Assembly: GCA_003141555.1 (NCBI GenBank)
Contig: PLMN01000028.1
Coordinates: 66,785 to 130,784, forward strand
Source: Candidatus Aminicenantota bacterium
GTDB taxonomy: Bacteria; Acidobacteriota; Aminicenantia; Aminicenantales; UBA4085
Length of the DNA: 64,000 bases
Reading direction: 5' to 3'
The notes below the pieces were generated by a model that did not search any database, was not told the origin of the DNA, and was given only the letters and a program-made list of their open reading frames with translations. The translations under genes were made by a program, and so were the position numbers. This document shows, piece by piece, positions 3,244 to 19,193 of the stretch. Each line of letters begins with the position of its first letter. Within the stretch, counting starts at the first letter, position 1.

Positions 3244-4104
3244 TCAGAAATGGATTTCGGCCTGAATAGTCGGGCAGAAGGTAGTGTGGTTGGGTTTCGT
3301 TGACGCCCCTGCCGGGATAGGAGTGGGGTTCCCAAACTTGTTGTGCCAGTACTCGCAACCCGGCCCGAGGAACACCTTTGCCTTCCCCAAACCGACCACG
3401 GCGCCGAAGTCGAACATCCACGACGCCCGGACCAGCGTCTCGGCTGCGGTCTCCACGAGAGCACCGTCTAACCCCTTGGGGCCTATGTAGTTTCCGAAGC
3501 CCTTGAAGACCGATGAAACGGTGCCCAGGGCGATCGGAATACCCCATGACGCGCTGACCATGTATGTCCCGTCGAACTCGACATCCTTGTTGACACCGAA
3601 GGAATTGTGGTTCCATTCCTTGTAGTACAAGACGCTGACATCGAGGAAGCCCCCGGAGATCTCGAAGTTCACCGTTGGGCCGGCGAGGATGACGCGCTTG
3701 CGGGGAGCGAAAGCCGTGTCCTTCGTGTTGAGATCGAAGCCCGCAGTGAAAGAAACGTCGCGCACCACCCCGAACTTGACGGGCGCTTGGAATGCCTTGT
3801 TGAAGTTAAGTTGGCTTCGGTAGGTCACGTAGATTTCCTGTGCACCGCGGGAACCTGCTCCATTCGCTGGATCGTTGCGGTCGGACATCAAGATATCGAC
3901 GTTCAGGTAATTACTTCCGAGGGAATAACGGCTTGAATGCGTGAACGAAACGATGTTCTTGGTTATAGCCGGATCAATGGCGGGTTCGTGAATATGGGAG
4001 CCCCACCGGTAGCCAATATAAGTGTCGCTCCAGTCGGATGCGCCCGCCTGGGATGTGGCCGTGAGGGAACAGATCACTAGGGCTAAAAGTATGATCTTCC
4101 TCAT
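3244..4104 (-). CDS. tsx: Tsx/OmpK-family nucleoside-specific outer membrane channel
   Basis: The 286-aa product has a classical signal peptide (MRKIILLALVICSLTATSQA) and then alternating beta strands. Segments such as DTYIGYRWGSHIHEP, NVDILMSDR, AGFDLNTK and FGNYIGPKG match the Channel_Tsx family, and it ends with phenylalanine as outer-membrane barrels do. The family lets nucleosides cross the outer membrane. The ATG at 4104 is chosen because AAGGAG lies eight bases upstream; longer in-frame starts would precede the signal peptide. It is the last gene of the long leftward cluster, 20 bp after the sigma-54 regulator, which suggests that the imported compound is nucleoside-like. Confidence 0.85.
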   Translation of the reverse strand: MRKIILLALVICSLTATSQAGASDWSDTYIGYRWGSHIHEPAIDPAITKNIVSFTHSSRYSLGSNYLNVDILMSDRNDPANGAGSRGAQEIYVTYRSQLNFNKAFQAPVKFGVVRDVSFTAGFDLNTKDTAFAPRKRVILAGPTVNFEISGGFLDVSVLYYKEWNHNSFGVNKDVEFDGTYMVSASWGIPIALGTVSSVFKGFGNYIGPKGLDGALVETAAETLVRASWMFDFGAVVGLGKAKVFLGPGCEYWHNKFGNPTPIPAGASTKPNHTTFCPTIQAEIHF

Positions 4105-4123
4105 CGATTGACTCCTTGGCCGC

Positions 4124-6019
4124 CTATGAACCAGGCCCACACGACCAACGCTGAGCTTCCTTCAACAGGGGCCGTCGAGCCACGGCTTCAGGCGGCAGCG
4201 GGCCGATGAGCCCGTTCTTACCTTTGAAAAGTATTCGGAACCAACGTTTTGCGTCAGCCGCCACGTTGGCGGAACGGTCGGCGGACGGCACGGCAAGCCG
4301 GAAGGCGCCGGAATAGTTCACTCGACCCGTCCGTGGGTCGCAGTAGGCTGCAAGACAAGCCTCCACCATATCAGCCAACTGCTCATGGAATCTGGCGACG
4401 AGCCGGTCGAAGCTGCCGTTAAGATCTCCAGACTCTCGCCCACGGGTCAAAAGCCAACCCGGCCGTGCGGCCGCGTCGTCGCCCGACGTAAGACGATCGG
4501 CGGCTCCGGGAACGACAACTGGGGCAGACATACGAGAAACCTCGGCTGTGGGGGAGTCGTATCGCCCGCCTGCGCCGTCCTTCCGGATACGTAGGTGTCC
4601 GGCAACTAGGTGCTCGACGTCGGGATTGGCGCTAACGGCATCGAAGATTGCCGTGCGCAGCTCACGGACGTTGCCGGGCCAGTCATGGAGGGAGAGGAGG
4701 ACGAGTGCTTCGGGAGCAACCTGCCGGGCCATCGCATTCTTTCGGCCGGCTTCGGCCTCGCGGACGAATCTCTCGACGAGGAGCGGGATATCTGAGGGAC
4801 GTTCGCGAAGCGGGGGGAGCCAGATCGTGCCGCCCGAAACGAGGCGATCCAGAAGGTCGGCGCGAAAGCCGGCGCTCAGCGCGGCGCGGCGTTCGATGTC
4901 TTCGTTGGTCGCAGAGATGAAACGGACATCGATTTCGCGGCCGGAACTGGCCCCGAGCGGAACGACGTGGTGAGTTTCGATCACCCGTAGGAGACCCGTC
5001 TGAACATCAGCCGGCATGTTCCCGATCTCGTCGAGAAAGAGGTCGCCTCGATCAGCCTGTATGATCCGCCCCTGTCGATCACGGTCGGCGCCCGTAAAGG
5101 CGCCGCGCATATGGCCGAAAAGCTCGCTTGCCCAGAGCGAGGGCGCCAACGCCCCGGAGTCGACAACCACGAACGGTCGCCGCTCGGCCCCGGGCTCGAT
5201 GCAGCGGCTGAGGTACTGCGCCAGGATCTCCTTGCCGGTACCGCGCTCGCCGCGAATGAGGACATTCCGGCGGTCGCCCGCCGCGCGGCGGGCGGCGCGC
5301 AGCGCGAGGAGAAGGGCCAGCGAGGTCCCGACGATCTCTCCGGAAGGATCGGGCATCAAACCGTGCCTCCACAGGTATTCTCGCAATCGCGCCGGTCCGG
5401 CGGAGTCCGTCCGAGAGATGAAGCCCAGTGCCCCCCGCGTGGTGAACGATCGACTCACATCCTCCCGTTGCTTGCTTGAGAGGATCACAACAGGCAGTTC
5501 GGGGAACTCCTCGCGCAGGCGCTCCAGGAGCGTCAATCCGAAGTACCTTCTCGCGTCGTCGTCGCCCGAGCGCCCTTCCGGCATGCCGGCGAAAGCCTCG
5601 TTGCTGGCCGGCGTGACGGCACCAGTGTAGAAGCAGAGATCGAGAAGTACGAGTGCCCAAGCTGGACGGGACGAACTTGCCGTGTCCCAGCCTTGCCTAA
5701 CGAAAGAGACAGTCTCTTCAAGATCGTTTTCGACAATGTCGCCTACGCCTGCGCGTAGCGGGTGCTGTCCCCGAAAGAAGACTGCATCCGCGATCGGTTT
5801 GACGACTTCCTCCTCGGACGGGGCCGTTTCGTCGCCGGTAATGTCCCTAAGGTCGTACATGCCGCAAAGGTTCGCCCGCTCACGATTCGGATAGCCCGGG
5901 ACTTGACGGCCGAACATATCGTCAATCACAAGAATGCGCGGAAGCGCATCACTTATGACACCTTTGTTGACCAGATACACCCCTGGCGTGCGAACTGAAG
6001 GCGGGACGCTTTTTTGCAT
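4124..6019 (-). CDS. Sigma-54 activator (AAA+) with receiver-like N-terminus
   Basis: This is a bacterial enhancer-binding protein of about 631 aa. The N-terminus resembles a receiver (ILVIDD, then LVLLDLCF as the phospho-acceptor strand, VVILSS, GALGFIS) but carries about 90 extra residues between strand 1 and the acceptor aspartate. The AAA+ domain has Walker A GERGTGKE, the sigma-54 contact loop GAFTGA, Walker B GDLFLDEIGN and the RADLLDRL arginine-finger region. The roughly 170-residue C-terminus lacks an obvious Fis-type helix-turn-helix. The start at 6019 is two bases after the upstream gene; an in-frame ATG at 6079 would overlap it. It should open the -24/-12 promoter found at 13147-13165, so the operon is probably autoregulated. 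Confidence 0.88.
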   Translation of the reverse strand: MQKSVPPSVRTPGVYLVNKGVISDALPRILVIDDMFGRQVPGYPNRERANLCGMYDLRDITGDETAPSEEEVVKPIADAVFFRGQHPLRAGVGDIVENDLEETVSFVRQGWDTASSSRPAWALVLLDLCFYTGAVTPASNEAFAGMPEGRSGDDDARRYFGLTLLERLREEFPELPVVILSSKQREDVSRSFTTRGALGFISRTDSAGPARLREYLWRHGLMPDPSGEIVGTSLALLLALRAARRAAGDRRNVLIRGERGTGKEILAQYLSRCIEPGAERRPFVVVDSGALAPSLWASELFGHMRGAFTGADRDRQGRIIQADRGDLFLDEIGNMPADVQTGLLRVIETHHVVPLGASSGREIDVRFISATNEDIERRAALSAGFRADLLDRLVSGGTIWLPPLRERPSDIPLLVERFVREAEAGRKNAMARQVAPEALVLLSLHDWPGNVRELRTAIFDAVSANPDVEHLVAGHLRIRKDGAGGRYDSPTAEVSRMSAPVVVPGAADRLTSGDDAAARPGWLLTRGRESGDLNGSFDRLVARFHEQLADMVEACLAAYCDPRTGRVNYSGAFRLAVPSADRSANVAADAKRWFRILFKGKNGLIGPLPPEAVARRPLLKEAQRWSCGPGS

Positions 6020-6021
6020 GT

Positions 6022-6552
6022 TCAACAGCAGAGTATTTGGTGCGGAAGTGTCGAAATCAAGTCGGTGAGAATTTTGCATCGCTCGATGAAAGCCTGAAGA
6101 AGCGCGCTCATAAGCCGAAGGTCGCCGGGCGTGGGCGTTCCGATAAGCCTGGCAAGAGCGGAGTCTGCCGCCTGGAATGCCAGCTCGACCTCCCGGTAGG
6201 CGATCATAGCAGCGCGTATCTTCTCGTGAGTTTCCGTTCTTCTGAGCCACAGCTGATGGATCAAAGGCAAAAGCCAACTCCGTGTTTCAGGAGAGCATCC
6301 GCAAAGAGGTACCCGATCGAAAAACACCTTTGGTGACATCTCTTCTTCGAACCGGCCTAGCAGCGCTAACAGCTCCGCCTGCCGCTCCTGCCAACGGCGG
6401 ACGTCCTGCGTGATCGAAGCGAGAACATCCCGCGGGCGAACCTTCCCCGAGGACACACTCCGCGCGTGGTTCAACGCGACCAGCACTCCGTTTTGAAGCC
6501 AGTTGTGGTTCAACTGTCCGCGATCAATTTGCCATTGCGCTACAATCGTCAT
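6022..6552 (-). CDS. Hypothetical protein, 176 aa, helical
   Basis: I do not recognise this protein. It is predicted by eye to be largely alpha-helical, with heptad-like leucine-rich stretches (RRWQERQAELLALLGRFEEEM) and no membrane segment or signal peptide. The ATG at 6552 is used because upstream in-frame codons overlap the preceding gene; an AAGGGA sits upstream. It lies 28 bp after the pseudo-receiver gene and 2 bp before the sigma-54 activator, so it is cotranscribed with the signalling genes. It could act as an adaptor or anti-activator of the regulator, but that is a guess from position only. Confidence 0.6.
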   Translation of the reverse strand: MTIVAQWQIDRGQLNHNWLQNGVLVALNHARSVSSGKVRPRDVLASITQDVRRWQERQAELLALLGRFEEEMSPKVFFDRVPLCGCSPETRSWLLPLIHQLWLRRTETHEKIRAAMIAYREVELAFQAADSALARLIGTPTPGDLRLMSALLQAFIERCKILTDLISTLPHQILCC

Positions 6553-6580
6553 CGGGTTTCGTTCCCTTGGCTGTCGGGCG

Positions 6581-7372
6581 CTAAAGTTCGCCTGATTTCC
6601 TGAGAAACTCGCTGATTTTATCAAACGCGCTTTTAACAACCGTTTCGTCAATCCTTGAATGCTCACCTATCAGGGATAGCAGCTTTATAACCGGCTTAAG
6701 TTGCACTTCGGACCACGTCCATTCATTCTTTACTAACGCCAGCAAACGATTGGCGGCTTCAAGGATCTTATCATTGTCCGATCCCGATTCAGGGATCACA
6801 CCGAAGAGATCAAGCCACCAACCCGCGCCTGCTTTGATGATATTAGCCTCGGCCCCCGCTTCTTTGATCAGTTTATTCAACGCAGCATCCAAGCCCAGTT
6901 CGCTGGGCGCAAATGCCGCGAGGTAACCTTGGCAAAGGATGGATAGCGCTATGAGAGTACTATAGTCGGGTGGCGGTTGAAGGAACGCCGGAACCTTGAT
7001 GTTTGCTTCTCCCCTCATAATCGCAGAAGCATATAGAACAAGTTCGGAAATTTCGTCATCCGTAAGCGATCCGGATCCAGTTGGATAGATTGGCCGTGAC
7101 CAGAATCGATGACAATATGGCCGCTGATCCCGTCGGCTATCCCACCTGCCATCGGGCTCCCCCGCGCCGCCATAGTAGACAACAACGGACCGACTAATAT
7201 TCAAAATCGCCGCCATGTCATCTTCGTAGTGAACCATAAGGATGTCGGTCGTATGACTTTCAGGATGTGCGCGAGAATGATACTCGTTTACCGCGATGCT
7301 TTTGTTCCTGAATCCCTGGACTAGTTTTTTCCGACGCGCCGCGCTACTATCAACTATCGATATTTTGATCAT
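6581..7372 (-). CDS. Pseudo-receiver-like protein, 263 aa
   Basis: The N-terminus (IKISIVDSSAARRKKLVQGF, then TDILMVHYEDD and SVVVYYGG) follows the strand-helix pattern of a response-regulator receiver, but the acidic pocket is incomplete and the phospho-acceptor position has histidine-tyrosine instead of a clear aspartate. The remainder is a helical domain I cannot assign. The ATG at 7372 lies just inside the end of the upstream receiver gene (stop at 7383), suggesting coupled translation; a longer start at 7474 would overlap it by 90 bp. Likely a phosphorylation-independent partner in the neighbouring signalling chain. Confidence 0.6.
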   Translation of the reverse strand: MIKISIVDSSAARRKKLVQGFRNKSIAVNEYHSRAHPESHTTDILMVHYEDDMAAILNISRSVVVYYGGAGEPDGRWDSRRDQRPYCHRFWSRPIYPTGSGSLTDDEISELVLYASAIMRGEANIKVPAFLQPPPDYSTLIALSILCQGYLAAFAPSELGLDAALNKLIKEAGAEANIIKAGAGWWLDLFGVIPESGSDNDKILEAANRLLALVKNEWTWSEVQLKPVIKLLSLIGEHSRIDETVVKSAFDKISEFLRKSGEL

Positions 7373-7382
7373 ATGTAAGCCA

Positions 7383-8642
7383 TCAGTCGAAGAAGCTGAG
7401 AACGGTTTCTTTCCCATATTCACTGGCTCCAATATTAACGCACGCACCACTGAGGTAATAGAAATTATTTTCATTGATGGTTTTCATCGTGGACATAAGG
7501 AAGGCGACAAGCGAATTGCTTGCATCGTGTTTAGGCTTCGCCACTCGTTTCGCCTTAGTCTCCGTAGCTTCAGGAAGTTTTGATCCGAGGAAGGTATATG
7601 CATGCGCAACGTTTGCTGGGAACGTGGATGGCGCCCAGCTTAACAACCAATCTATTCGTTCGGAGGTTTCCCCATCCAGAATGAGGGTTGCGGATTTGAG
7701 GGCACAAGGATGGTCAGCATTCTTATCAACGAATAGTTTCTGGCACATTTTTCCAAATGCGCTTATGGTGGCGAAGCGATCGTATGCGGTCTGAGGGGGG
7801 ATGAATGGATGTTTGTAACTCCGGCCTGTCCGTTTCCAGGGGGTAAGGGACGAAGGCAAAGGGAACGCCGACGAAATACACATGGGATACAACTCAGACG
7901 CCTTCAGTAGACTTAGAAGCCAAGCTCCTGCCAAGCCTACCCCCCCCTCGGCTTCCGAATTCGCCATCTCGTAGAGTTGGCGGTCGAGAAAATCTTTCGG
8001 AAGAGATAATAAGGAAGGGAAATGTTTATTTAGCAAATTAGTCCGCTCATTGTTGCCATCGGGCGGATGCGCACTTAAAATATCGGCATTTGTACTAATC
8101 AGAAGCTCTTGAAAGAGAGCATCGTATGGTCCGGATTGCAGCGCTTCCCAATGAAGCAGGCCTAATACAATATTTTCTATAATAGCCACGTCACTATCGC
8201 AAGCTGTAGTGCCCGTAGGAACTACGTACGGTAGCGCCGCAGGGAGGGAATTCTTTATTTCCAAGATGATTGGCGTGATGCTATAGCTTGTCGCAAGGAC
8301 AATGGCAATGGTTCCGTCCAAGCTAATCTCAGGAAAAACATCCACGATCCCAACGCCCCGAGGCCCGCTTCGTTCTGAGCCTGGCATTTCGCAATCTAAT
8401 AGCAAAATAGTTGGTATCTGGGGCTCCTTCAGAATAGCAAATTTAGCTCGCAAGTCTTTATAGTCATTTACTTTTAAAGCCTGGAGTTCAAAACTTAAAT
8501 TACGACGGAGAAAACGGGCGGCGAAAGGGCTTTCTTTTCCTTTTAGATGTTTAAGAATTAGTGGAATCCCAATCCTATTGAACCGAATACTACGGTCGCC
8601 CTTAGGGTCGTCGTCGAAAAGCAGTATCCGTATTTTGTCCAT
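7383..8642 (-). CDS. Receiver-domain-like protein, 419 aa
   Basis: The N-terminal part resembles a response-regulator receiver: ILLFDDDP supplies the acidic pair, TILLLDCEMPG carries a plausible phospho-acceptor aspartate about residue 83, and IAIVLATSYS matches strand 4 with its conserved Thr/Ser. A longer than usual loop separates strand 1 from the acceptor. The C-terminal 250 residues have no recognised output domain and no DNA-binding motif. The gene sits 15 bp after the kinase-like gene and runs into the pseudo-receiver gene, so phosphotransfer between these products is the obvious hypothesis. Confidence 0.7.
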   Translation of the reverse strand: MDKIRILLFDDDPKGDRSIRFNRIGIPLILKHLKGKESPFAARFLRRNLSFELQALKVNDYKDLRAKFAILKEPQIPTILLLDCEMPGSERSGPRGVGIVDVFPEISLDGTIAIVLATSYSITPIILEIKNSLPAALPYVVPTGTTACDSDVAIIENIVLGLLHWEALQSGPYDALFQELLISTNADILSAHPPDGNNERTNLLNKHFPSLLSLPKDFLDRQLYEMANSEAEGGVGLAGAWLLSLLKASELYPMCISSAFPLPSSLTPWKRTGRSYKHPFIPPQTAYDRFATISAFGKMCQKLFVDKNADHPCALKSATLILDGETSERIDWLLSWAPSTFPANVAHAYTFLGSKLPEATETKAKRVAKPKHDASNSLVAFLMSTMKTINENNFYYLSGACVNIGASEYGKETVLSFFD

Positions 8643-8657
8643 AGATTTTCTCCATGC

Positions 8658-10733
8658 TCATGTGGGGATTCGTAGACTTGAGATCCAAAGACCTTTGCTT
8701 GTGTTGTAGCCGAATTGAGAGTGTTTCGCGACTTCGTTAATGGAGCCGCCCTTGTTCAAGCATTTCCAGATCTCCTGCCCCGCAATCATCATTACAAGAA
8801 GGGTGCCTTTCAGTTCAGTCTGACGTGCTTCGGGCAAGATATTGCAGGTATTTGAAACACTCGCTACGACGGCATGATCTTCGGACTCGAATGCGACCGA
8901 GAGTTGGAGAGATGGGTTTGGCCCTTTCAGGAGCGCAAACGCATCTGATGCAAAGCCGAGCTTCTTCCTCGGCTCGAGTTTGAGGAATTCTGAAGGGACA
9001 CTATATGTATTCCCAATAATGTGCTTCCAAGCATTGCCGAGGACAGCTAGCATCCACCGATAAATCGCGCGGCTTAGATTATCTTTTTGAGTTTCAAGAA
9101 AATTTCTGATAGGAAGATTCGCTAGGCCTGTCGAAGAGCAATTCGAGTCAGCAGTATAGAGGCTTTCGGCTGCGTTCCAAAGAGCGTCGAAAGTTCGCCA
9201 ATCCTCATTAGAAATCTGGGAATCTCCTAGCCCTCTAACAATGTCTGTAACAAGGCAGAGACGCCAAGATTCACGAAGAAGGCATTTTACTAAACTGTCG
9301 CATGCGATGAGCTTGCCCCTCTTGTCCCAAAGATATCCATCGGCAGGGATTACCGAGGCGGAGGAACTTCCCCAAAGCATGCCATATTGGAGCGTCATTT
9401 CAGTGAGCCGACGGACAAAGGCCGCGGTGGACTTCTCGGGTGGTTTTCGTCGAGCGATGATTATCCCATATGTCGTAGCATAAACTTTTGAAACCTCATG
9501 GCCCATCGCTTCGCTCATTTGGGAAAAAGCGGTATCGGCGCCTTCTTTCTCCGCATCCTCCCAGTCCTCGAGTTCGCGTAAAAAGTGGTAGATAGACTCG
9601 AGGTGTTTTCGGACGAGTCCTAATAGAATTGGATCAATTGGAAATTTCGAGTATAAGTTCACTGTCCCAATCGCTGCGTCATGCATGTCCTTGCCTCCCT
9701 TGTTGCGGAATTCCAGCGAGGGGTTTAGTAGGAAGGCATAGTAATGGTCGAATGTTAGAATCTTTTCGTCCCTAAGGTATTGAGCGTAGGTTCGGTAGCG
9801 GCAGAAACGGTCTGCGGCAAAGTCGGTAAGGGAACGAATAGTTTTGGCAGGCGACTCCCCAGGGATCTTCTTGAGGTCGAGAATCCTCTTCCATTCGGGA
9901 TCATTTCTAACTGGGAGGGCTCGGAAATTCGAGAAAAAAAACGTTGAAAAGATCGCTTGGAGGATTGTACGCTCTTCAACTGTGACTTGGGGCTTAATTA
10001 CTGGAAATGGTTGCTGCGAAGCAACGCCCCCGCGTGAGAAAAAGTTCTCCCCGGTGTCGAGGGCTTTCATGAATTCGGCGGTGACGTCGAAGCAGTTAGT
10101 TCGCGCCGGAAATCTAATATTCAGGATTCCGTGTACGAAATCAGCAGGCGGTATTTCCGGGTTTGGGTCAGGGTCAAAGGTGAAATGAAAGCCGTGGATC
10201 GGTTTTGGTACATCTTTGCTTTTGTGAACAAGGAAGCCATGTTCAGCCGTCCAACCTGAGAAGCCGGAGAGCGTCACTTCTTTCTCAATTCCCATTCTAT
10301 CTAGGAAAGTGATTGGCTTCTCATAAATGTAGTAATTCCAAAAGGCTACGGGCATGAAGTACCGCGATTTATCATGCTTACCGCCGTTCGCCATTTTCCC
10401 AAAGCGTTCGGCAAAATACCAGAAGTCGGGATCTTTCTTATCGTCGATTTGGGCACCAGGCGTAGGTTTTAGCAATCCGACTCCGCGATAGCGCGGCGCG
10501 ACGAAGACGCTATCGAGATAATCGGGATTATCAGGATATGTTTCATTCAGAACTGAGGAGAGCCGTTCCGCAATTTTTACATTGATTTGCTCCTCCATAT
10601 TTCTGTAGCTATCCGCATCCTTTTTAGGGTTGAGCCAATACTCTCGGGCAATTTCGAAGCAGTCACGCGTGAGGCTTTCAAGTCGAAGCATCGCGTTCCC
10701 AAGTTGTTTTTCGTCAAGGGGGAGTTCAGTCAT
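8658..10733 (-). CDS. Histidine-kinase-like protein, divergent, 691 aa
   Basis: I infer kinase ancestry from two features. A segment near residue 409 (AMGHEVSKVYATTYG) resembles the H-box of a DHp helix, and one near 566 (VLGNAWKHIIGN) resembles the N-box of a GHKL ATPase. The expected DxGxG G1 box is absent: the aligned region reads VASVSNTCN. The C-terminal KGLWISSLRIP recalls the last strand of the fold. The first 350 residues are an unrecognised input region without membrane segments, so the protein is cytoplasmic. It lies 15 bp after the ABC ATPase gene and just before two receiver-like genes. It could be an active divergent kinase or a pseudokinase. Confidence 0.6.
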   Translation of the reverse strand: MTELPLDEKQLGNAMLRLESLTRDCFEIAREYWLNPKKDADSYRNMEEQINVKIAERLSSVLNETYPDNPDYLDSVFVAPRYRGVGLLKPTPGAQIDDKKDPDFWYFAERFGKMANGGKHDKSRYFMPVAFWNYYIYEKPITFLDRMGIEKEVTLSGFSGWTAEHGFLVHKSKDVPKPIHGFHFTFDPDPNPEIPPADFVHGILNIRFPARTNCFDVTAEFMKALDTGENFFSRGGVASQQPFPVIKPQVTVEERTILQAIFSTFFFSNFRALPVRNDPEWKRILDLKKIPGESPAKTIRSLTDFAADRFCRYRTYAQYLRDEKILTFDHYYAFLLNPSLEFRNKGGKDMHDAAIGTVNLYSKFPIDPILLGLVRKHLESIYHFLRELEDWEDAEKEGADTAFSQMSEAMGHEVSKVYATTYGIIIARRKPPEKSTAAFVRRLTEMTLQYGMLWGSSSASVIPADGYLWDKRGKLIACDSLVKCLLRESWRLCLVTDIVRGLGDSQISNEDWRTFDALWNAAESLYTADSNCSSTGLANLPIRNFLETQKDNLSRAIYRWMLAVLGNAWKHIIGNTYSVPSEFLKLEPRKKLGFASDAFALLKGPNPSLQLSVAFESEDHAVVASVSNTCNILPEARQTELKGTLLVMMIAGQEIWKCLNKGGSINEVAKHSQFGYNTSKGLWISSLRIPT

Positions 10734-10748
10734 TTCCGAATTCCATCG

Positions 10749-11477
10749 TCATCGCGCCCCTAGAACCAGGCCAAGAAAGCGCTCGAGGCGGCTGGACTTG
10801 GGGTTGTCGAGGATCGTGGGCGGACCTTGTTCGACAAGAGTTCCATTGTCGAGGAAGACGATCTGATCGGCGCTATGACGCGCGAAGTCGATGAGGTGAC
10901 TCACCAAGAGCAGGCCAACCCCTCTATTCCTGAGGGATTTCAGCCGATCGAGGATCATGGCGACATATTCTATGTCGAGGGCTGAGGTGATCTCGTCGAG
11001 AAGGAGGTAGCGTGGTTGCAGCGCGAGGGCCCGGGCGATCGCGCCGAGTTGCCGTTGGCCGAGGGAGACTTCGTTGGGGAACCGATCGGCCAAGCTGGAT
11101 ATTCCGAATTCCTTGATGATCTGGTCCACGCGGTCCTCGGGAGAGAGAATTCCACGGGACCGGAGGGGTAGTACTGCGTTCTGGCGAATCGTAAGGTGGG
11201 GCCAGAGGAAGAGCTGCTGGAATACGACCGTAATCCGTGGCCAGGCGAACTGCGTCGGAATGGGCGTATTGCGCGGAAACGTGATCGCCTGTTCGTCGAT
11301 GAAAACGGTGCCGGACGTAGGCGGGTCGAGAAGCGCGAGGCTCCGAAGGAGCATACTCTTCCCGCTTCCGCTAGGTCCGATAATTGTAGTGATCGTCCCG
11401 GGTTCGACCTGGATATCGATCCCATGGAGGATTTCGATATCACCGAAGCTCTTCCGTATCTTCTCGCCTTTGAGCAT
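10749..11477 (-). CDS. ABC transporter ATP-binding protein, polar amino acid type
   Basis: This 242-aa ATPase powers import through the neighbouring permease. It has Walker A GPSGSGKS (about residues 34-41), a Q-loop in VVFQQLFLWPHLT, a signature VSLGQRQ that replaces the usual LSGGQ, Walker B YLLLDE and the switch histidine in LLVSHL. The ATG at 11477 lies eight bases after the permease stop with AGGA upstream; the frame is open far upstream but that part is only a shadow of the permease gene. It is the third gene of the binding protein-permease-ATPase set. Confidence 0.9.
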   Translation of the reverse strand: MLKGEKIRKSFGDIEILHGIDIQVEPGTITTIIGPSGSGKSMLLRSLALLDPPTSGTVFIDEQAITFPRNTPIPTQFAWPRITVVFQQLFLWPHLTIRQNAVLPLRSRGILSPEDRVDQIIKEFGISSLADRFPNEVSLGQRQLGAIARALALQPRYLLLDEITSALDIEYVAMILDRLKSLRNRGVGLLLVSHLIDFARHSADQIVFLDNGTLVEQGPPTILDNPKSSRLERFLGLVLGAR

Positions 11478-11485
11478 TTGGATTC

Positions 11486-12151
11486 CTAACGCTCGGAGTG
11501 GTCCCTTGTGAACCGGACTCGCAACCAATGGGCAAACAAGTTCAACGGCACGCAGACCGCGATGAAAAAGAACGCCAGGAGAGTGTAGATTTCGACCGGG
11601 CGGTAGATGAGAGAGTTCACCCGCTGCGCGACGCGGAAGATCTCGTCGACGGAAATCATGCTGGCAAAAATGGTCATCTGGAAGACCGTGATCTGGATGA
11701 GCAGTAGGCCGGGAATGAGCTGCCGCAAAAGCAAGGGAAGCTGGATGTGGAAGAGAGTGTCGTTGGCTTTCATGCCGCAGACTCGCGCAGCGTCGAGGTA
11801 CTGTCTCGGGAAGTCGGTTATGGCGTTGCGGACCTGGTCGGCGACGAGGAAGATGTTGATGATGGAGAGGGTCAACGCTGCAGTGAGAAACGGGTCCACG
11901 ACGACTTTGAGGAATGCCTGGAGAGGGTAGTGCATCCAGAAGAGGAACACGAGTACGGGCATTCCCGCGAGGATGACGGAGATGACCTTCGAAGGGCCTC
12001 CCACCGATCTTCGGAAGGAGGCACCGAGGGTCCCGAGGGTGCTGCCGATGACGATGCCGGAAATCCAGACGACCGCACATAACTTAAGCGTGACGAGAAG
12101 TCCCCCCAGCATCGGCTGGCTGTACTGCTGGATGATCTGGAGAAAGTTCAT
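11486..12151 (-). CDS. ABC transporter permease, HisM/GlnP type
   Basis: The 221-aa protein has five hydrophobic segments and the cytoplasmic EAA-like loop DAARVCGMKANDTLFHIQLP, in which alanine-glycine spacing matches amino-acid importer permeases. It forms the membrane channel for the solute captured by the lipoprotein encoded upstream. No strong ribosome site precedes the ATG at 12151, and an out-of-frame ATG at 12164 has AGGGGA before it, so the exact start is uncertain. It is 55 bp downstream of the binding-protein gene. Confidence 0.88.
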   Translation of the reverse strand: MNFLQIIQQYSQPMLGGLLVTLKLCAVVWISGIVIGSTLGTLGASFRRSVGGPSKVISVILAGMPVLVFLFWMHYPLQAFLKVVVDPFLTAALTLSIINIFLVADQVRNAITDFPRQYLDAARVCGMKANDTLFHIQLPLLLRQLIPGLLLIQITVFQMTIFASMISVDEIFRVAQRVNSLIYRPVEIYTLLAFFFIAVCVPLNLFAHWLRVRFTRDHSER

Positions 12152-12206
12152 CGGGCTTCGGCATTCCCCTCGAATATTGATGAACCGGCGCGTGGGAGCG
12201 GAGCGC

Positions 12207-13088
12207 TCACTTCACTCTATAAGGCAGCGCGGCCCGGTAGTAGGCGTTAGGGGCCGGTTCGTACTTGCGAAGAATTCGCTCGACGAAACCGCTGTTCTCG
12301 ACCTCTGCGAGGGCTGTATCGATCATCTCTTTCATCCGGTAATCCCCTCCGGGAAGAAGAAACACATTGGGGAAGACCTTCACCGGCTTGTCGGCAGCGA
12401 TGTTTTTGATTTTTCCGGGGTTGTTCTTGACGTAGAGAAACCCTTTCGCGGGCTCCTCGAAGAAGGCATCGACTTTTCCGGTCGTCACATCGAGGAAGAG
12501 TTGACCCTCTCCGACGGACTCGGGGTAGGAGAGGAGCTTGGCATGGGGAAACTGGGTTTGGGCGATCTTCTCGCCGGTCGACCCGTCGATTGCACCGAGC
12601 TTGATTCCGGGTTCGTTGAGACTGGCCCAACCGCCGTCGGGAGAAAAGCGGTTCTCGTCCTGCCGGACCCAGATGCCGATAGCGCTGTAGTAGACGGGAT
12701 TCGAAAACGTCGTCTGTTTGGCCCGGTTCGAGTTCGGCCAGACGGGCGAAGCTATCATGTCATATCGCTTCGTCTGCAGGCCCGCGATCATGGTGCCCCA
12801 GCCGACTTCCTCGACGTATTCGACCTTCAACGCCATGTTCTTCGCCATTTCCTCGAGAACATCCACGAAGATCCCGGATTTCTCCTTTGTCTTGGGGTCT
12901 ACATTGAAGCCAACGGAGACGTTGACATAACCTACCCTGATCTTGCCGGATTGCATGATCTGGTCCCGGACCGAGGCCGGGGCCTGGGAAACATTCCCCC
13001 CACCAGAAGACTTCGGGGAACATCCCACAATAACCAGCAGAGAAACAACCAGGGCGACGAGGCCACTCAACAAATTTTTTCTTTTCAC
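12207..13088 (-). CDS. Solute-binding lipoprotein, SBP_bac_3 family
   Basis: The product (about 293 aa) has a basic N-terminus, a hydrophobic segment and the lipobox VIVGC, so it should be an envelope-anchored receptor. The mature part starts with the family signature GKIRVGYVNVSVGFN and contains DVLEEMAKNM and MIASPVWPNSNRAKQTTFSNPVYY, typical of periplasmic binding proteins for polar amino acids and related small solutes. The GTG at 13088 is chosen because AAAGGAG stands seven bases upstream; longer starts would add a non-signal extension. It is the first gene after the sigma-54 promoter and thus the likely entry point of the inducing compound. Confidence 0.9.
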   Translation of the reverse strand: MKRKNLLSGLVALVVSLLVIVGCSPKSSGGGNVSQAPASVRDQIMQSGKIRVGYVNVSVGFNVDPKTKEKSGIFVDVLEEMAKNMALKVEYVEEVGWGTMIAGLQTKRYDMIASPVWPNSNRAKQTTFSNPVYYSAIGIWVRQDENRFSPDGGWASLNEPGIKLGAIDGSTGEKIAQTQFPHAKLLSYPESVGEGQLFLDVTTGKVDAFFEEPAKGFLYVKNNPGKIKNIAADKPVKVFPNVFLLPGGDYRMKEMIDTALAEVENSGFVERILRKYEPAPNAYYRAALPYRVK

Positions 13089-13146
13089 GATATACTCTCC
13101 TTTGCGCACCGAAATCTTTGGGTGTGCCCTATTCTCGCTTTTATAT

Positions 13147-13165
13147 CTGCATATTTTATGCCAAT
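13147..13165 (-). promoter_or_regulatory. Sigma-54 (-24/-12) promoter of the leftward operon
   Basis: Read on the reverse strand the site is TTGGCATAAAATATGCA, with GG and GC separated by exactly ten bases, and it keeps TGGCA and TGC of the consensus. Transcription would start near 13137, about 50 bases before the GTG of the lipoprotein gene. The operon itself encodes a GAFTGA-type activator, which makes the assignment coherent. Confidence 0.75.
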
Positions 13166-13238
13166 TTCTAAAACGTGACACAACTCCTTATAACCATCTG
13201 GTCTGGCTATGATAATAGCGCTCGGATAGGCATTTCTA

Positions 13239-13272
13239 CTATACGATATAGCAATTTAACTATTTTGTATAG
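13239..13272. promoter_or_regulatory. Inverted repeat, candidate activator site
   Basis: CTATAC at 13239-13244 is mirrored by GTATAG at 13267-13272. The repeat lies about 75-110 bp upstream of the -24 element, the usual distance for an enhancer bound by a sigma-54 activator. The arms are only six bases, so chance occurrence in an AT-rich region cannot be excluded. Confidence 0.35.
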
Positions 13273-13455
13273 GGGGATACATTTGACATCATCATTTAAA
13301 ATGGCCCGTCTATATTGCGAGTTTTCTGGCAAAATCTCTTGGAGGAACCTGTAAATCGCAGTTCAGCGATGATACACTAAATGGGGGCAGAGTAGATAAT
13401 AAGACAGCACGGAAATAGCCAAGGACTTTGTGAATGCGGTATGAAGGGGTGATGC

Positions 13456-13980
13456 ATGGAAGAAAGTGGAAAGCTCGATGAGGCCGTATTGGAAGGCAGT
13501 ATTTTTATCGTTGGTTTTGGAACTCCCGTACGGGCTCACTTGCCGGAGGATGAACGAGGCCCGCGAATTGTTTGGAAGGCGCTTGAACAGGTCATTTCAT
13601 TGTTTCTTCCTCCAGATAAAAAACCAGCGCTAGTCCTGGTCGGTCCGGAGGGAGTAATCGAGACCGCTAACCTCCCAGGCGTTGTCAATGGACAGTCATC
13701 CATGGTTGCGGTGCAGAGTTTGCTACGGCATTATCGAGAAGAGCGAGAAAAGATAGCCGCGTATTGCTTGGAGATGACCAAAGACACCCCATCGCTTCTA
13801 CCTTGGCGATTAGCTTTTCCGAAGAACCTGGTTCTCTCCCCGCCCTTCGTGGTGTCTAAATTACTGACCACGATCGTTGCCCCCGGCCCTGGCCCAGATC
13901 CCGTTAAGATGGAAGAACAGTGGAAAAAAGTAATGGCACAACGATTGGCGCATCAAGAAACCCTGAAGGAAAAACAATGA
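13456..13980 (+). CDS. Hypothetical protein, 174 aa
   Basis: I do not recognise this family. The N-terminal half alternates hydrophobic strands and helices (GSIFIVGFGTPVRAH, ALVLVGPEGVIETANLPG), suggesting a compact alpha/beta fold; the C-terminus is a basic, probably coiled helix. AAGGGG precedes the ATG at 13456. Its stop overlaps the start of the next gene as ATGA, so the two are translationally coupled, and it may be a partner of the large fusion protein. No catalytic motif is visible. Confidence 0.65.
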   Translation: MEESGKLDEAVLEGSIFIVGFGTPVRAHLPEDERGPRIVWKALEQVISLFLPPDKKPALVLVGPEGVIETANLPGVVNGQSSMVAVQSLLRHYREEREKIAAYCLEMTKDTPSLLPWRLAFPKNLVLSPPFVVSKLLTTIVAPGPGPDPVKMEEQWKKVMAQRLAHQETLKEKQ

Positions 13981-16900
13981 GCCTGCCGCGGGTTCTTCGT
14001 ATATTGGTGGTCGATGATTTGGTCTTTGAGAATAAGGATCTGCGCGAGTATATCCGCAACCTTGTCTTCGTAATTGCCTTTAATTCCGAAAAGAAGCTTG
14101 AGTATGTGGATGTTGTGTTTGCCGGAACCCCGGATGCTGGGGCCAAATTATGGCAGCAGGAGGCATTCGATCTGACGCTGATCGACTCTCATTTCATTCA
14201 GAAACCGGAGACGCTATCTGGTGACTATGCGCACGACGTGCTGCTCGTCAACGCGACCTTTCAAGGACTCCTTCTCTTTAAAATATTGAAACAGTTATCG
14301 GAGGGAAAGGACGAACGGTATTTTTATCGATCCGGTAAGGACAATTTTGTAATCTGGTCGTCTCTCAAAATAAGTGATATCGAAGAGTTCCCGGGCATAA
14401 AAGAATATACCGACGCATATTATTGGCCCAAGGCAGAAGGATGGGCAAAATTTCATAAGGGCATTAAGGATGCGGTAGATCGAGTCGCCGGTAACAACAA
14501 CGCAGAGTTTTTGTTGGAGCGAGTGATAACTTTTTCGAGGTTATCGCACCGGGGTCGAGCCGTTGAATGCGACCGACAACCGTGGCCATTCGACTTCGCA
14601 GAGTGGAGTTTTCTTATCCGGGATGATTTTTCGAATCCGATATTTCCATACCTGAGAGAAGTAGTAGCTTGTAATGAACAAAACTCCTGGCGACTTGGTC
14701 GACGTTTGCCCGATACCGCACGTGGTAAAGATGTGGTTTGCCTTCCTTTTGTCCCCGCGTTGTTGGACAAACCCCTACCGGATCTTATTAAGTACCTGAT
14801 GTCCGTTATTCGCGCTGAGGAAAATGCTACGCTAGGCAGCATTATCGAGACGGTTATAATCGGTCTTCCAAAGGCGGGGAACACACTCATTTCGTCCACC
14901 AAACCAATTTATCCGGAAATATCAGATCACGCTGGTCAGGCTAAAGAAGAAGGTGGAACCGGATTTAATTTCCTTGAGAACGTGTTTCCGAACCGCTTTT
15001 TTGCTGCCGCAACGCCACTGACCGGCACCAGCGTTGTAGGCGATCAAAACGCCATCGCTGCGTTGGAAGAGAAAGTGAGATGGCTTCTCGATGGTCGATT
15101 TGGCGGAGTCATCCTCAAGACTACCTATCTCGATACACTCGACCAATGGGACGGAGTACGGTGGCCATCGATCCAGGTGCAGAGTCACATGAGGTCACGG
15201 TGTCTCTTTCCCGACACGGGGACCGCAACCCTTTGGAATACTGGTCGGACCGCCCTGGAGATGCTTCTTCCGAAGCAGCTCAACTCCTTGCTTTGCCTGA
15301 TCAAGACAAATGATCTGGAAACACACCGAGTGATTATCTCTCTCGGGAGTAAGTACTATGAGCCGGGCGAACTGAAACGGGGATATCGAGAAACCGTACG
15401 CAGCGAGTATAGGCAACTATGGGAGAAGCTATTTTCGGATGTGTTTGAGGGTTTGGAAAAAACGAATTTTCCTATTGTAGAGATCAATGTTCGCCACTTC
15501 CTCCGGGAAATTGTCGAGTATTACCTGGGGGGAGATGAGTACTTGAACCCCACAAAAGTGGAGGAGAAGTGTCCGTCGGATGTGGACGCGTTTTGGACTG
15601 AATATGCACTTTGGCTCGAGGCAGTTCATTCGATAGCGGTGGAACACAAGAAGATGCTTATATTAAAAATGCCGCACCGAAGTGACACCCTTGCTCTGAT
15701 CCGCTATGCCCTATCGCTACGCCGCCTGCACCTTCGTGCTTCTTCGGTACCTGAAAGCGATCGCAAGTACGGAGTTAGAGCAATCTCGCTTGTTAATGCT
15801 TTGAAAACACCCGTACCGCGTTCTTCTGGTTATGCAAAAAGGCATTCGGTGGCATGGTATGCCGATGCGTATGGATGGGGTGATGCCGGAGAGAAAACCG
15901 GCAAGTACCAGATGTCTGGCGCGATGGTAGCTCCCTATCGCAATCAATTACTTAGCGGTTTGCTCCGAGGCCAAACTTTGCGAGACGACGACCTCGAAGT
16001 AATGGTCTCCGGTGGGGTTACTAACCCACAAGAGATCAATGCAATCGACAACATTGAGAGAAGCGCGAAATATAGCAGTACCAAATTCCCGATACAGATC
16101 GGAACCTGGGCTTTGCTGAAGATGTCCCCTGCAAAATGGGACGATACAGCTTCATGGGGCACTCAACAAGCGCCCAGCGTTGCAGCCTTTCACTTAAATC
16201 TGTCCGACTTGAGATCGACGTGCGTCGGCACCTGTCACATTGGCTGTCAACTTCCTGGTCTTTACGAGGCCTTTTTGCAAAGGGGAACTGATAATAAGAT
16301 TGTCGTCACCGGGGTCGGCGACATCCCATTGAGCAAAGCAAGTGCCGCCATTAGGGCTTGTAGCAAGGGGCAACTTGGCATAGCTGGGGTTCCCGCTAAG
16401 AGGAAAGCTTCTGACGCTTCTTGCCTGAAAGCCATTACGCCTAGAGTAGTCAGTCTAAACGAACGGCAATGTATTGCTTGTGGCCGTTGCCAAGAGATCC
16501 ACTATTGCGACTCCTTTATGGATAGATTCAGGATGCACTTCCCTCCCTTATTGGAGCCTCGAAACTGCACTGGCTGTGGCCTCTGTGTTCAGTCCTGCCC
16601 CCAAGGGGCCTTGCAGTTGTTTAAGCCCGAACACCTCCTGGTTCTGCTGGATGACCGGGCTGAACGTCATGAGATCCTCAATGAGATTGGCGTTCCGCAT
16701 CTCTGTATCTCAAACGATGAGGTGAGGCATTTTTTTATGGCGGACGAAAGAGTATTTGTAGCAAACACCACTTTAATTGCCACTGCTGAAACTCCCGCAG
16801 AAGGATCAACCGGGCTTGGGAATATCCTCAGGGAGATCTTCAATAAGCGCGTGGGCAAAGACAAAGAATACGGGCTCGATAAATTTTGCTTGCGCAGAGA

Positions 16901-17537
16901 AAAGGAAGACCTATATTCAGAAAACAGAGCCGCTTGGCTGAACCCGAGAGGTCAGTTTGTAGGTGATGCTCTGGCGGGCGGATTGCACGCCGTGTGGGAC
17001 AACAAAATACTGCGGATGCTCTATGCCAAAGTCGCAGTCGCAGCCATGTACGTTTGGACCGATCCGGGGCAGGTGCTATTTTTGAGCCCTATCGTCGCGG
17101 TAGACACAGAACTCCGGAAAGACAAAACGGGTCGGTACCAGGTTATTAACCATCTTGTCGTTTTGAGGGGTGGAATAGTCAATGTTGAAGGCCGTTTTGA
17201 GATTCCCGCCCGGGTTGTGACTACGATCCCCACAAAAGATGCCAAGACTGCGAGTGGTCCTATTGCGATAACCTTGCCCGGTCCATCATTTAATCTTGTT
17301 CAACTGGAGGAGACAGAAAAGCAACAATACGAAGCAAGTGGCTATGGCGAGGGACGATTGGATGGATTAGATTTCCGCGGAGCGGGAAGATTTTTTGTTG
17401 AAGGCTACAACGACCTGTCGCCAGATGAACGGATAGCCATTGCCGGTTTGCCGTGGAGCGACTTGAGACACTTCCCCGGGGTAGCCGACATTGTGGAGGA
17501 GATGACAGTTCGCGAGAAACTGCGTGATTTGAAATGA
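13977..17537 (+). CDS. Receiver-like / DHOD-like barrel / 4Fe-4S fusion protein, 1186 aa
   Basis: The order of parts is unusual. Residues 1-120 resemble a receiver: ILVVDD with D13-D14 and a possible acceptor D70 in DLTLIDSHF. From about 335 the sequence resembles the dihydroorotate/dihydropyrimidine dehydrogenase flavin barrel: NRFFAAATPLTGT, FGGVILKTT, then near 676 VMVSGGVTNPQEIN and IQIGTWALL. At about 830-880 come two cluster motifs, CIACGRCQEIHYC and CTGCGLCVQSCP, as in PreA, where a barrel is followed by ferredoxin domains. The last 300 residues are unassigned, with a weak Maf-like look near the end (GRFFVEGYNDLSPDERIAIAGLP). The ATG at 13977 overlaps the previous stop and the gene end overlaps the BtpA gene. 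I infer a flavin/iron-sulphur redox enzyme whose activity may be tied to signalling; the substrate may be a pyrimidine. Confidence 0.65.
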   Translation: MSLPRVLRILVVDDLVFENKDLREYIRNLVFVIAFNSEKKLEYVDVVFAGTPDAGAKLWQQEAFDLTLIDSHFIQKPETLSGDYAHDVLLVNATFQGLLLFKILKQLSEGKDERYFYRSGKDNFVIWSSLKISDIEEFPGIKEYTDAYYWPKAEGWAKFHKGIKDAVDRVAGNNNAEFLLERVITFSRLSHRGRAVECDRQPWPFDFAEWSFLIRDDFSNPIFPYLREVVACNEQNSWRLGRRLPDTARGKDVVCLPFVPALLDKPLPDLIKYLMSVIRAEENATLGSIIETVIIGLPKAGNTLISSTKPIYPEISDHAGQAKEEGGTGFNFLENVFPNRFFAAATPLTGTSVVGDQNAIAALEEKVRWLLDGRFGGVILKTTYLDTLDQWDGVRWPSIQVQSHMRSRCLFPDTGTATLWNTGRTALEMLLPKQLNSLLCLIKTNDLETHRVIISLGSKYYEPGELKRGYRETVRSEYRQLWEKLFSDVFEGLEKTNFPIVEINVRHFLREIVEYYLGGDEYLNPTKVEEKCPSDVDAFWTEYALWLEAVHSIAVEHKKMLILKMPHRSDTLALIRYALSLRRLHLRASSVPESDRKYGVRAISLVNALKTPVPRSSGYAKRHSVAWYADAYGWGDAGEKTGKYQMSGAMVAPYRNQLLSGLLRGQTLRDDDLEVMVSGGVTNPQEINAIDNIERSAKYSSTKFPIQIGTWALLKMSPAKWDDTASWGTQQAPSVAAFHLNLSDLRSTCVGTCHIGCQLPGLYEAFLQRGTDNKIVVTGVGDIPLSKASAAIRACSKGQLGIAGVPAKRKASDASCLKAITPRVVSLNERQCIACGRCQEIHYCDSFMDRFRMHFPPLLEPRNCTGCGLCVQSCPQGALQLFKPEHLLVLLDDRAERHEILNEIGVPHLCISNDEVRHFFMADERVFVANTTLIATAETPAEGSTGLGNILREIFNKRVGKDKEYGLDKFCLRREKEDLYSENRAAWLNPRGQFVGDALAGGLHAVWDNKILRMLYAKVAVAAMYVWTDPGQVLFLSPIVAVDTELRKDKTGRYQVINHLVVLRGGIVNVEGRFEIPARVVTTIPTKDAKTASGPIAITLPGPSFNLVQLEETEKQQYEASGYGEGRLDGLDFRGAGRFFVEGYNDLSPDERIAIAGLPWSDLRHFPGVADIVEEMTVREKLRDLK

Positions 17538-18523
17538 AACAGGTAACCAGATCTGGTGCGCCCACCGTTATCGGGATGGTTCACATACCGATCAACACAA
17601 TTCTTGCCAGCCCGGTTGCATGGCGCGACACGTTGGGGTATCGCGGAGTTTCAGCGGAGGATTGGCGGCTCATCTCCGCGATGCTCGATACCGGTGGCGA
17701 TACGGACAATTTGAGACAAAGCGCAGCAACCGTACGATCATTGAGTTTCTTTAATCAGCTTGAAACGCAGATGTTAGAGGCCGCGTATCTATATAAAGCA
17801 TCCGGCTTCAATGCTTTGATGCTGGAGAATGTTGCGGCTCCGTACTTTGTGCGAGGGGATCAACCGCCCGTGGTTTACTGGGTGATGTTTGCTCTGGCAA
17901 ATCGACTGAGAGCAACGTTTCCGAAGATACGGTTGGGCATACAAGTATTGGCCTATTCTGATGACTGGGCTATGGACATCGCGTGCCGATGCAGCGTGGA
18001 CTTCATTCGTTGCGAGAGCGCGCTCTTCGAGGGAGTACGCCCGGAGGGGCGAGCGCCGAATCATGGGAATCTGGCGAAGCTGTACATGATGCGGAACAAG
18101 CTCATGGTGGAGATCGGGGGGAATGGGGCGGGACCCCAGGTTTACGTGGACATTCAGAAGAAACATACGGTGTTTATGTCGGCCTTGGATTCGCTGGGGG
18201 TGTGGTTGGATAATATCCAGTTTCAGAAACTTGAGGGCATCGTCGTCACCGGCAGAGCAACAGGTCAACCAGTCGAGGAGAACGATCTGCGCCGGACGCG
18301 TGAAGCAATCGAGAAGGTGAAAGCCGAATCCCAAGCGGCCGTTGGATTGGTATGGGCACCCGCACTTATCGTGGGCTCAGGAGTTTCAGCGGACAACATT
18401 GGGATGTGCAAGCGGTATGCCGACGCAGCGATCGTAGGCTCATCGCTTAAGAGAAACGGGTACTGGGAATGCCAGTTGGACCAGGAGCGGGTAAAGCGAT
18501 TCATGGAGGCTTGGAATGCTTGA
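17534..18523 (+). CDS. BtpA/SgcQ-family TIM-barrel protein
   Basis: The 329-aa product matches the BtpA family through VIGMVHIP at the first strand, GFNALMLENV, DFIRCES, VDIQKKH, IVVTGRATGQP and IVGSSLKRNG near the end. BtpA was named for a role in photosystem I accumulation in cyanobacteria; most relatives in non-photosynthetic bacteria have unknown enzymatic roles and resemble phosphate-binding TIM barrels. The ATG overlaps the stop of the large fusion gene (ATGA) and the end overlaps the Maf gene, so it acts in the same pathway. Confidence 0.85.
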   Translation: MKQVTRSGAPTVIGMVHIPINTILASPVAWRDTLGYRGVSAEDWRLISAMLDTGGDTDNLRQSAATVRSLSFFNQLETQMLEAAYLYKASGFNALMLENVAAPYFVRGDQPPVVYWVMFALANRLRATFPKIRLGIQVLAYSDDWAMDIACRCSVDFIRCESALFEGVRPEGRAPNHGNLAKLYMMRNKLMVEIGGNGAGPQVYVDIQKKHTVFMSALDSLGVWLDNIQFQKLEGIVVTGRATGQPVEENDLRRTREAIEKVKAESQAAVGLVWAPALIVGSGVSADNIGMCKRYADAAIVGSSLKRNGYWECQLDQERVKRFMEAWNA

Positions 18524-19193
18524 TTCAGCTAGAGGATCGCCATGGAAGGCATCGGTATTTCTTGCGTCTATGTCTCCACAACGCGCGGCGATCCTTCAGG
18601 AGCTTAAGATTGAATTTCAAGCGATTACGATCGCGGTTGATGAAGTAACGCTCGATACGCCAGAGGAGACCGTACAGGAAAACGCCAAGTTGAAGGCGCT
18701 CGCGGCATTGCGTGCGATTCCGTCGGGGAGCTTGGTTATTGCAGCTGATACGATAGTATTCGCCCACGGTAGTATTCTAGGGAAACCCGATAACAAAGCG
18801 ACCGCTCGGGAGTATCTCTGTGCTTTGAGCGGTCATACCGTTCGAGCTTTCTCTGGAATAGCCGTTGCGCGAAAAGGCGCTGATGAGGGAGTCCTGGCTC
18901 TCGAATATGCCGATGCGCAGATCAAAGCTTTGTCGGAGTCGGAGATCGCGTGGTACATTGAGACAGAAGAGCCACTTTCTCGCGCCGGTGCGTTTGGCAT
19001 AAGTCGGTACGGCGAAATATTCGTCGAGAAGACTTATGGCGCGTATTCATGCATAGCAGGATTGCCCAAGATTGCCTTGCTAGCCTGTTTGGACGCAACG
19101 GGGGCTTCGGGAGCTTGCGCGTTCCCAGTTCTTCCCCCGAAGGAGCTTTTCGCACACAGAGTCAATCTGCAGCGCTTTCGTCTTGCGTCGTAA
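18516..19193 (+). CDS. Maf-family nucleoside triphosphate pyrophosphatase
   Basis: Maf proteins hydrolyse non-canonical or pyrimidine nucleoside triphosphates to monophosphates. Conserved parts are the phosphate-binding ASMSPQR near the N-terminus, the catalytic ADTIV segment, GKPDNKATAREYL with SGHTV, and AGAFGIS followed by the terminal AGLP. The SPRR motif is SPQR, and the usual DKAGAY is SRAGAF, small deviations in a plausible active enzyme. GGAGG precedes the ATG at 18516, which lies inside the end of the BtpA gene. A roughly 30-residue C-terminal tail is not typical. Its place in the operon fits a nucleotide- or nucleoside-related role. Confidence 0.88.
   Translation: MLDSARGSPWKASVFLASMSPQRAAILQELKIEFQAITIAVDEVTLDTPEETVQENAKLKALAALRAIPSGSLVIAADTIVFAHGSILGKPDNKATAREYLCALSGHTVRAFSGIAVARKGADEGVLALEYADAQIKALSESEIAWYIETEEPLSRAGAFGISRYGEIFVEKTYGAYSCIAGLPKIALLACLDATGASGACAFPVLPPKELFAHRVNLQRFRLAS

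Follow-up and report, generated by a model that had tools for sequence, protein, structure and literature searches.

A regulatory module recurring with different importers in a divergent gene cluster of a Candidatus Aminicenantota bacterium

In the window, by which we mean the whole 64,000-nucleotide stretch analyzed here (GenBank assembly GCA_003141555.1, contig PLMN01000028.1, positions 66,785 to 130,784), two divergent operons bring together an ABC importer, signaling proteins, a sigma-54 activator and several enzymes. Do these genes form one system, and which compound does it handle? The initial annotation treated both operons as a single system for a pyrimidine- or nucleoside-like substrate. 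Comparison with homologous loci shows conservation of the regulatory-importer module but not of the two operons as a unit. We consider it as probable as not that the left operon represents one variant of a mobile, modular system for importing and sensing, here fitted for an N-heterocycle; the best reading is that the module spread horizontally between genomes. Our search of the open-licence literature retrieved no description of a cluster of such composition.

Composition of the two operons

All thirteen ORFs were confirmed, in two divergent, tightly packed operons with within-operon gaps of -8 to +55 bp and a divergent intergenic region of 367 bp. The source genome is 3.79 Mb in size. Start codons were corrected by a Shine-Dalgarno-like sequence, a signal peptide or the length of homologs, yielding GTG at 13088 for the substrate-binding protein (SBP), and ATG at 6019 for the activator, at 6552 for g3, at 7372 for g4 and at 4104 for the outer-membrane protein. 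The features are:

3244–4104, minus strand: outer-membrane protein of the Tsx/OmpK/DUF5020 type (AtzS-like) with a signal peptide, last gene of the left operon
4124–6019, minus strand: receiver-AAA+ sigma-54 activator (Pfam Sigma54_activat, 3e-46; homologs 27–54% identical)
6022–6552, minus strand: g3, a new conserved family (22–52% identity in homologous loci)
6581–7372, minus strand: g4, receiver-like N-terminus (by eye) and a domain with the shared motif ALxILCQGYL
7383–8642, minus strand: g5, receiver-like by motif only (FDDD...LLLDCEMPG), C-terminus with no assigned domain
8658–10733, minus strand: soluble histidine-kinase-like protein (H-box AMGHEVSKV, N-box GNAWKH)
10749–11477, minus strand: ABC importer ATPase (Pfam ABC_tran, 1e-30)
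11486–12151, minus strand: ABC importer permease (Pfam BPD_transp_1, 3e-14)
12207–13088, minus strand: lipoprotein SBP of the SBP_bac_3 family (Pfam PF00497, 3e-22)
13148–13163, minus strand: candidate sigma-54 -24/-12 promoter TGGCATAAAATATGCA, located 59 bp before the SBP start codon
13239–13272, no strand: inverted repeat of CTATACGATATAG and CTATTTTGTATAG that could serve as an upstream activator site
13456–13980, plus strand: g10, 174 aa, first gene of the right operon, with no known relatives
13977–17537, plus strand: 1186-aa fusion of a receiver-like N-terminus, a dihydroorotate dehydrogenase (DHOD)-like barrel, a 2x[4Fe-4S] ferredoxin part and a 290-aa C-terminus with no assigned domain
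17534–18523, plus strand: divergent BtpA-family TIM-barrel protein (Pfam BtpA, 96.8 bits)
18516–19193, plus strand: additional Maf-type nucleotide pyrophosphatase that keeps the catalytic motif but has altered base-selecting residues

The GC content is uneven across the cluster (47–50% in the kinase-like gene, g5 and g4, 56–58% in the importer genes and 63% in the activator), which fits a mosaic origin. Downstream, at 19397–24153, the window encodes a VWA protein and a Tubulin_2 (PF13809) protein. The tubulin-like gene is missing from 11 relatives, and hence the cluster is located in a variable region. As this neighbor is likewise genome-specific, comparison of the flanks with those of relatives was uninformative.

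A regulatory module with exchanged importers

The receiver part of the activator (window positions 5351–6019) was searched against a sample of 396 genomes of the phylum, and activator homologs were found in four other genomes. A receiver profile of these homologs retrieved three more in class-level searches, for a total of seven loci in other genomes; one further search yielded no additional homolog. In every locus found, g3, a 174-aa-type protein, either adjoins the activator or forms a fusion with it (the latter in L023 and L024); this neighbor, overlooked in the initial annotation, is thus a conserved partner of the activator. The conserved part consists of the activator and g3, to which the importer loci add kinase-like and usually g4-like proteins.

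Like the NtrC-type enhancer-binding proteins, the activator joins a receiver, weakly matched by Response_reg, to an AAA+ domain with intact Walker and GAFTGA motifs. Unlike them, it has a receiver with long insertions, no Fis helix-turn-helix (HTH) domain was found by Pfam in it or in any homolog scanned, and the homologs share another conserved C-terminal domain in alignment. Both acidic residues of the pair are kept in the activator receivers, as is the phospho-acceptor aspartate. The GAFTGA motif is altered in the activators of five genomes, G474, G274, G086, G517 and G074 (e.g. KTATGV, GAFTDA, GAFTSA), which makes their contact with sigma-54 uncertain.

The same gene order as in the window, namely SBP, permease, ATPase, kinase (851 aa), receiver (452 aa), g4, g3 and activator, was observed in G274 (L016), bearing out the initial view that importer, kinase and activator belong together. 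Here g5 is the positional equivalent of the 452-aa protein, and the g4 motif recurs in a 274-aa protein, as well as in a 280-aa protein of L028. The importer of G274 is from a different family (PF04392/BPD_transp_2), and the locus has a different enzyme, a B12 radical SAM protein. In G474 (L028/L029), consecutive genes on one strand encode an importer of the Liv type, a pair of ThiF-like proteins, YcaO, a nitroreductase, an SBP, a putative HATPase-receiver protein, then g4, g3 and the activator. This region (G474:C28) is likely a single operon, and looks as if import sensing had been coupled to a pathway for azoline-type peptides or thioamides. In G086 (L019), an NMT1-type importer is followed by two unannotated proteins, g3 and the activator.

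Hence, three of the seven homologous loci have importers, belonging to three further families (PF04392, NMT1 and the Liv-type Peripla_BP_6), and together with SBP_bac_3 of the window four importer families are joined to one regulatory lineage. Other enzymes are found at two of these three loci (B12 radical SAM in one; YcaO, nitroreductase and ThiF in the other). The initial proposal of one fixed system comprising both operons fails here, as the importer family and the enzymes differ at every importer-bearing homologous locus. Moreover, the fusion/BtpA/Maf operon is missing from all homologous stretches read, so that for the homologs of the left operon the two operons do not occur together, an outcome that the initial annotation had itself named as counting against its proposal.

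The kinase and the free-standing receivers are putative assignments made by motif, with no significant family match. The initially described kinase-like protein does have H-box- and N-box-like motifs, whereas the Pfam scan, HisKA and HATPase included, gave no match. Both boxes are kept in the 851-aa protein of G274 (MLGHEVIKA and NALKH) at weak overall similarity (E of 0.003–0.008), and the equivalent in G474 matches DUF6272 (E of 0.0008), with motifs that suggest a receiver-like segment. Similarly, the receivers proposed in the fusion and in 7383–8642 are recognizable by their DD...D motifs, although Pfam detected none in either protein.

The biosynthetic-type enzymes in the homologous operons, and the soluble kinase adjoining the importer, would also be expected of quorum-like signaling, in which enzymes make or modify a signal, the importer recaptures it and the kinase reads it. 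We consider this improbable, since neither an exporter nor a precursor peptide was seen, and Maf and BtpA of the window are more suggestive of salvage or clean-up than of synthesis.

The remaining loci are simpler. On the short contigs of G281 and G257 (L017 and L018), g3 and the activator are the only recognized members, and no importer was found in the stretches read around the g3-activator fusions of G517 and G074. In an operon of the latter (L024, G074:C134, 696–10064), the fused g3-receiver-AAA+ activator lies beside a 1041-aa single-chain RNA polymerase-like protein with the motifs GDKLATRHGIKGV and LGADFDGDQVNV and the domains Rpb2_6 and Rpb1_2. In addition, proteins encoded directly downstream of the activator in L019 (881–3334, 817 aa) and L023 (2489–4770, 760 aa) are 38% identical to each other, and have a receiver-like segment and no Pfam match.

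The activator identities are out of step with kinship: the closest homolog (54%) is from another family of the class, while that of G274, from the same order, is 36–40% identical. This suggests horizontal transfer. Rare, patchy and mosaic loci are also what one might see if the receiver/AAA+ core controlled variable effectors of a defense or conflict system, and the replacement of the importer by a single-chain RNA polymerase at one locus, as well as the match of the AAA+ region to RtcR-type PADLOC models, point the same way. Still, we regard such a role as very improbable: the PADLOC match covers a generic sigma-54 AAA+ region, PADLOC finds no effector in the window, and importers and metabolic enzymes are atypical as effectors.

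Sigma-54 sites and the proposed relay

The genome encodes RpoN. Among background stretches of the same length, no more than 0.5% reach the score of the candidate promoter upstream of the importer operon. Corresponding sites were found in G086 (TGGCATAGTGAATGCA, 98 bp upstream of the first gene; background fraction 0.013) and in G474 (TGGCAAACATATTGCT, 30 bp upstream; 0.033). In all, three of the four importer loci have a good -24/-12 site upstream of the importer operon, G274 being the one with no site found. Counted by plain consensus across the entire window, sites of this kind are no commoner than expected by chance; what speaks for them is their position and their recurrence. In G474 (2/150) and G086 (1/150), the palindromes that lie upstream of the sites surpass shuffled sequences; the quality of the intergenic palindrome in the window is not above that of shuffles. 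The initially proposed sigma-54 link is thus retained for the importer operon, where autoregulation is likely judging by these sites, but no -24/-12 site was found upstream of the right operon, and sigma-54 control of the enzyme operon is tentative.

Under the modular reading, the ABC importer, fed by the nucleobase-type outer-membrane channel, would take a small molecule into the cell, and the soluble histidine-kinase-like protein would sense either this molecule or the working importer. Phosphate would then pass via the receiver proteins, helped by g4 and g3, to the receiver-AAA+ activator. The activator would then act on the sigma-54 promoter in front of the importer operon that encodes it, giving positive feedback, and would probably switch on the divergent enzyme operon too. 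What differs between loci is the importer and the enzymes; the activator and g3 stay.

Transporter-linked two-component regulation is already known. In particular, an enhancer-binding protein and RpoN control an ABC amino-acid importer in AauR–AatJQMP, the glutamate/aspartate uptake system of Pseudomonas (PMC7962211). By comparison, the kinase-like protein of the window has no known family match, the activator has no recognizable HTH, and the operon adds extra receivers, g3 and g4. Each half of the locus has known parallels (AtzR/AtzSTUVW, considered below, and AauR/AatJQMP), and there is a real chance that the module is a class of its own. Tentatively, this would be a new signaling class, a possibility that we rate as unlikely yet worth stating, in which a conserved cytosolic relay (kinase-like protein, receiver, g4, g3 and an HTH-less activator) is plugged onto unrelated importers with processing enzymes, so that the cell reads its imports; in one lineage, the activator module would instead have a private single-chain RNA polymerase. 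If true, a constant relay with swapped importers and enzymes would be a general route to new substrate senses in bacteria, and the g3 and g4 families would gain a role.

Substrate clues and the enzyme operon

The outer-membrane protein was initially called a Tsx channel. It is not Tsx by sequence: Pfam gave no Tsx match, BLASTP against Tsx of E. coli was not significant, and relatives are annotated as DUF5020 or OmpK. The closer relatives, at 37–43% identity, are on plasmids; those with the OmpK and DUF5020 annotations are more distant. Five of six independent annotated neighborhoods of the relatives hold nucleobase or N-heterocycle genes (the count omits a pADP-1 repeat and two loci with no local annotation). 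These are cyanuric acid genes with an AtzT-type importer on pADP-1, AtzT being a guanine-binding protein (PMC6834077); dihydroorotate dehydrogenase and dihydroorotase; a nucleobase symporter and a BMP protein in a caffeine degrader; urate/allantoin genes; and hydantoinase/NCS1/cytosine permease genes. The sixth neighborhood has no nucleobase genes. These neighbors are an association and not proof of what the channel may carry.

With an SBP_bac_3 binding protein and a BPD_transp_1 permease, the importer groups with the polar amino-acid importers (PAAT). The binding protein belongs to an amino-acid type and not to a nucleobase type; among solved relatives, cyclohexadienyl dehydratases and ArtJ are closest to it. 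The pyrimidine- or nucleoside-like substrate of the initial annotation is thus favored by the neighbors of the outer-membrane relatives and by Maf, whereas the binding protein speaks against it.

Could the locus be an ordinary sigma-54-regulated one for N-heterocycle catabolism or salvage, with a local, incidentally divergent two-component system whose resemblance elsewhere reflects a widespread response-regulator family? The nucleobase neighbors of the outer-membrane family would agree with this, and so would the layout of AtzR/AtzSTUVW–AtzDGEHF on pADP-1, where an ABC importer operon with a related outer-membrane protein is divergent from an enzyme operon, both having sigma-54-dependent promoters (PMC6834077). 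The pADP-1 locus differs in having the LysR regulator AtzR, a BMP-type importer and different enzymes, and it lacks the kinase, receivers, g3 and g4 seen in the window. Moreover, at other loci the same regulator lineage accompanies unrelated importers and enzymes, with the operon order kept. The extra conserved families g3 and g4 belong, to our knowledge, to no known two-component system. On balance, we consider an ordinary locus rather unlikely.

The right operon (the 174-aa protein, the fusion, BtpA and Maf) was found nowhere else. No homolog of the fusion was found among same-family genomes (n = 12), in the phylum sample (n = 396), in two pattern scans of GTDB genomes, or among plasmids and viral contigs; ferredoxin-level matches were all that these searches gave. 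In some of the viral-contig and GTDB scans, the choice of pattern was steered by combining the fusion with artificial rows randomized outside motifs guessed to be conserved; these query devices do not represent biological alignments, and a negative outcome with them is no proof that homologs are absent. The fruitless searches leave room for distant homologs.

Within the fusion, two ferredoxin-type [4Fe-4S] motifs were identified by Pfam. The barrel was not detected by Pfam or phmmer, nor by profile methods: neither a local HMM nor a global PSSM of the DHOD barrel separated the fusion from shuffles. Only the third test on this question, for the order of nine conserved blocks derived from nine PreA/DHOD proteins, marked the central ∼490 residues as DHOD-like (Z of 4.4, 0/400 shuffles; controls, namely four unrelated proteins, BtpA and the reversed sequence, had Z of -1.1 to 1.2). 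A barrel followed by two [4Fe-4S] motifs is the arrangement of PreA and of the C-terminal half of dihydropyrimidine dehydrogenase, whereas the fusion has a receiver-like N-terminus and an added C-terminus. At the N-x-S/C-P loop it reads EINVRHFL, lacking the catalytic Cys/Ser in the one alignment on which this reading depends, which makes a standard dihydropyrimidine dehydrogenase an unlikely identity for the fusion. Of the initially proposed receiver-DHOD-ferredoxin fusion, the Fe-S part stands, and the barrel is putative, with support from the motif test. Single-sequence structure predictions were discarded (pLDDT 37 for the barrel/Fe-S part and 38 for the kinase C-terminus).

The BtpA protein, missing from 11 relatives, is a Pfam member as initially called (PF03437, gathering cut-off 30 bits), although at 90.5 bits it is below the curated cut-off of 153.4 bits for the BtpA/SgcQ subfamily (NCBIfam TIGR00259). 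Within the modular reading, the payload of the window would act on a pyrimidine- or purine-like N-heterocycle: the Fe-S flavoenzyme-like fusion on the imported molecule itself, BtpA on a downstream sugar or nucleotide form, with Maf clearing unwanted triphosphates. The window is also a candidate for a new Fe-S/flavin-type reaction on a nucleobase-like molecule, with the altered selectivity of Maf hinting at the product.

The Maf protein, the second copy in the genome, matches Pfam and has the complete catalytic motif S-R-E-K-D-K of YhdE and YceF, which upholds the initial call. By the motif scheme of PMC3899018, its selectivity positions read Q-T-S, as compared to R-T-Q in the YhdE subfamily, to which it does not conform, and W-Q-E in YceF; positions 12 and 153, R and Q in YhdE, are Q and S here.
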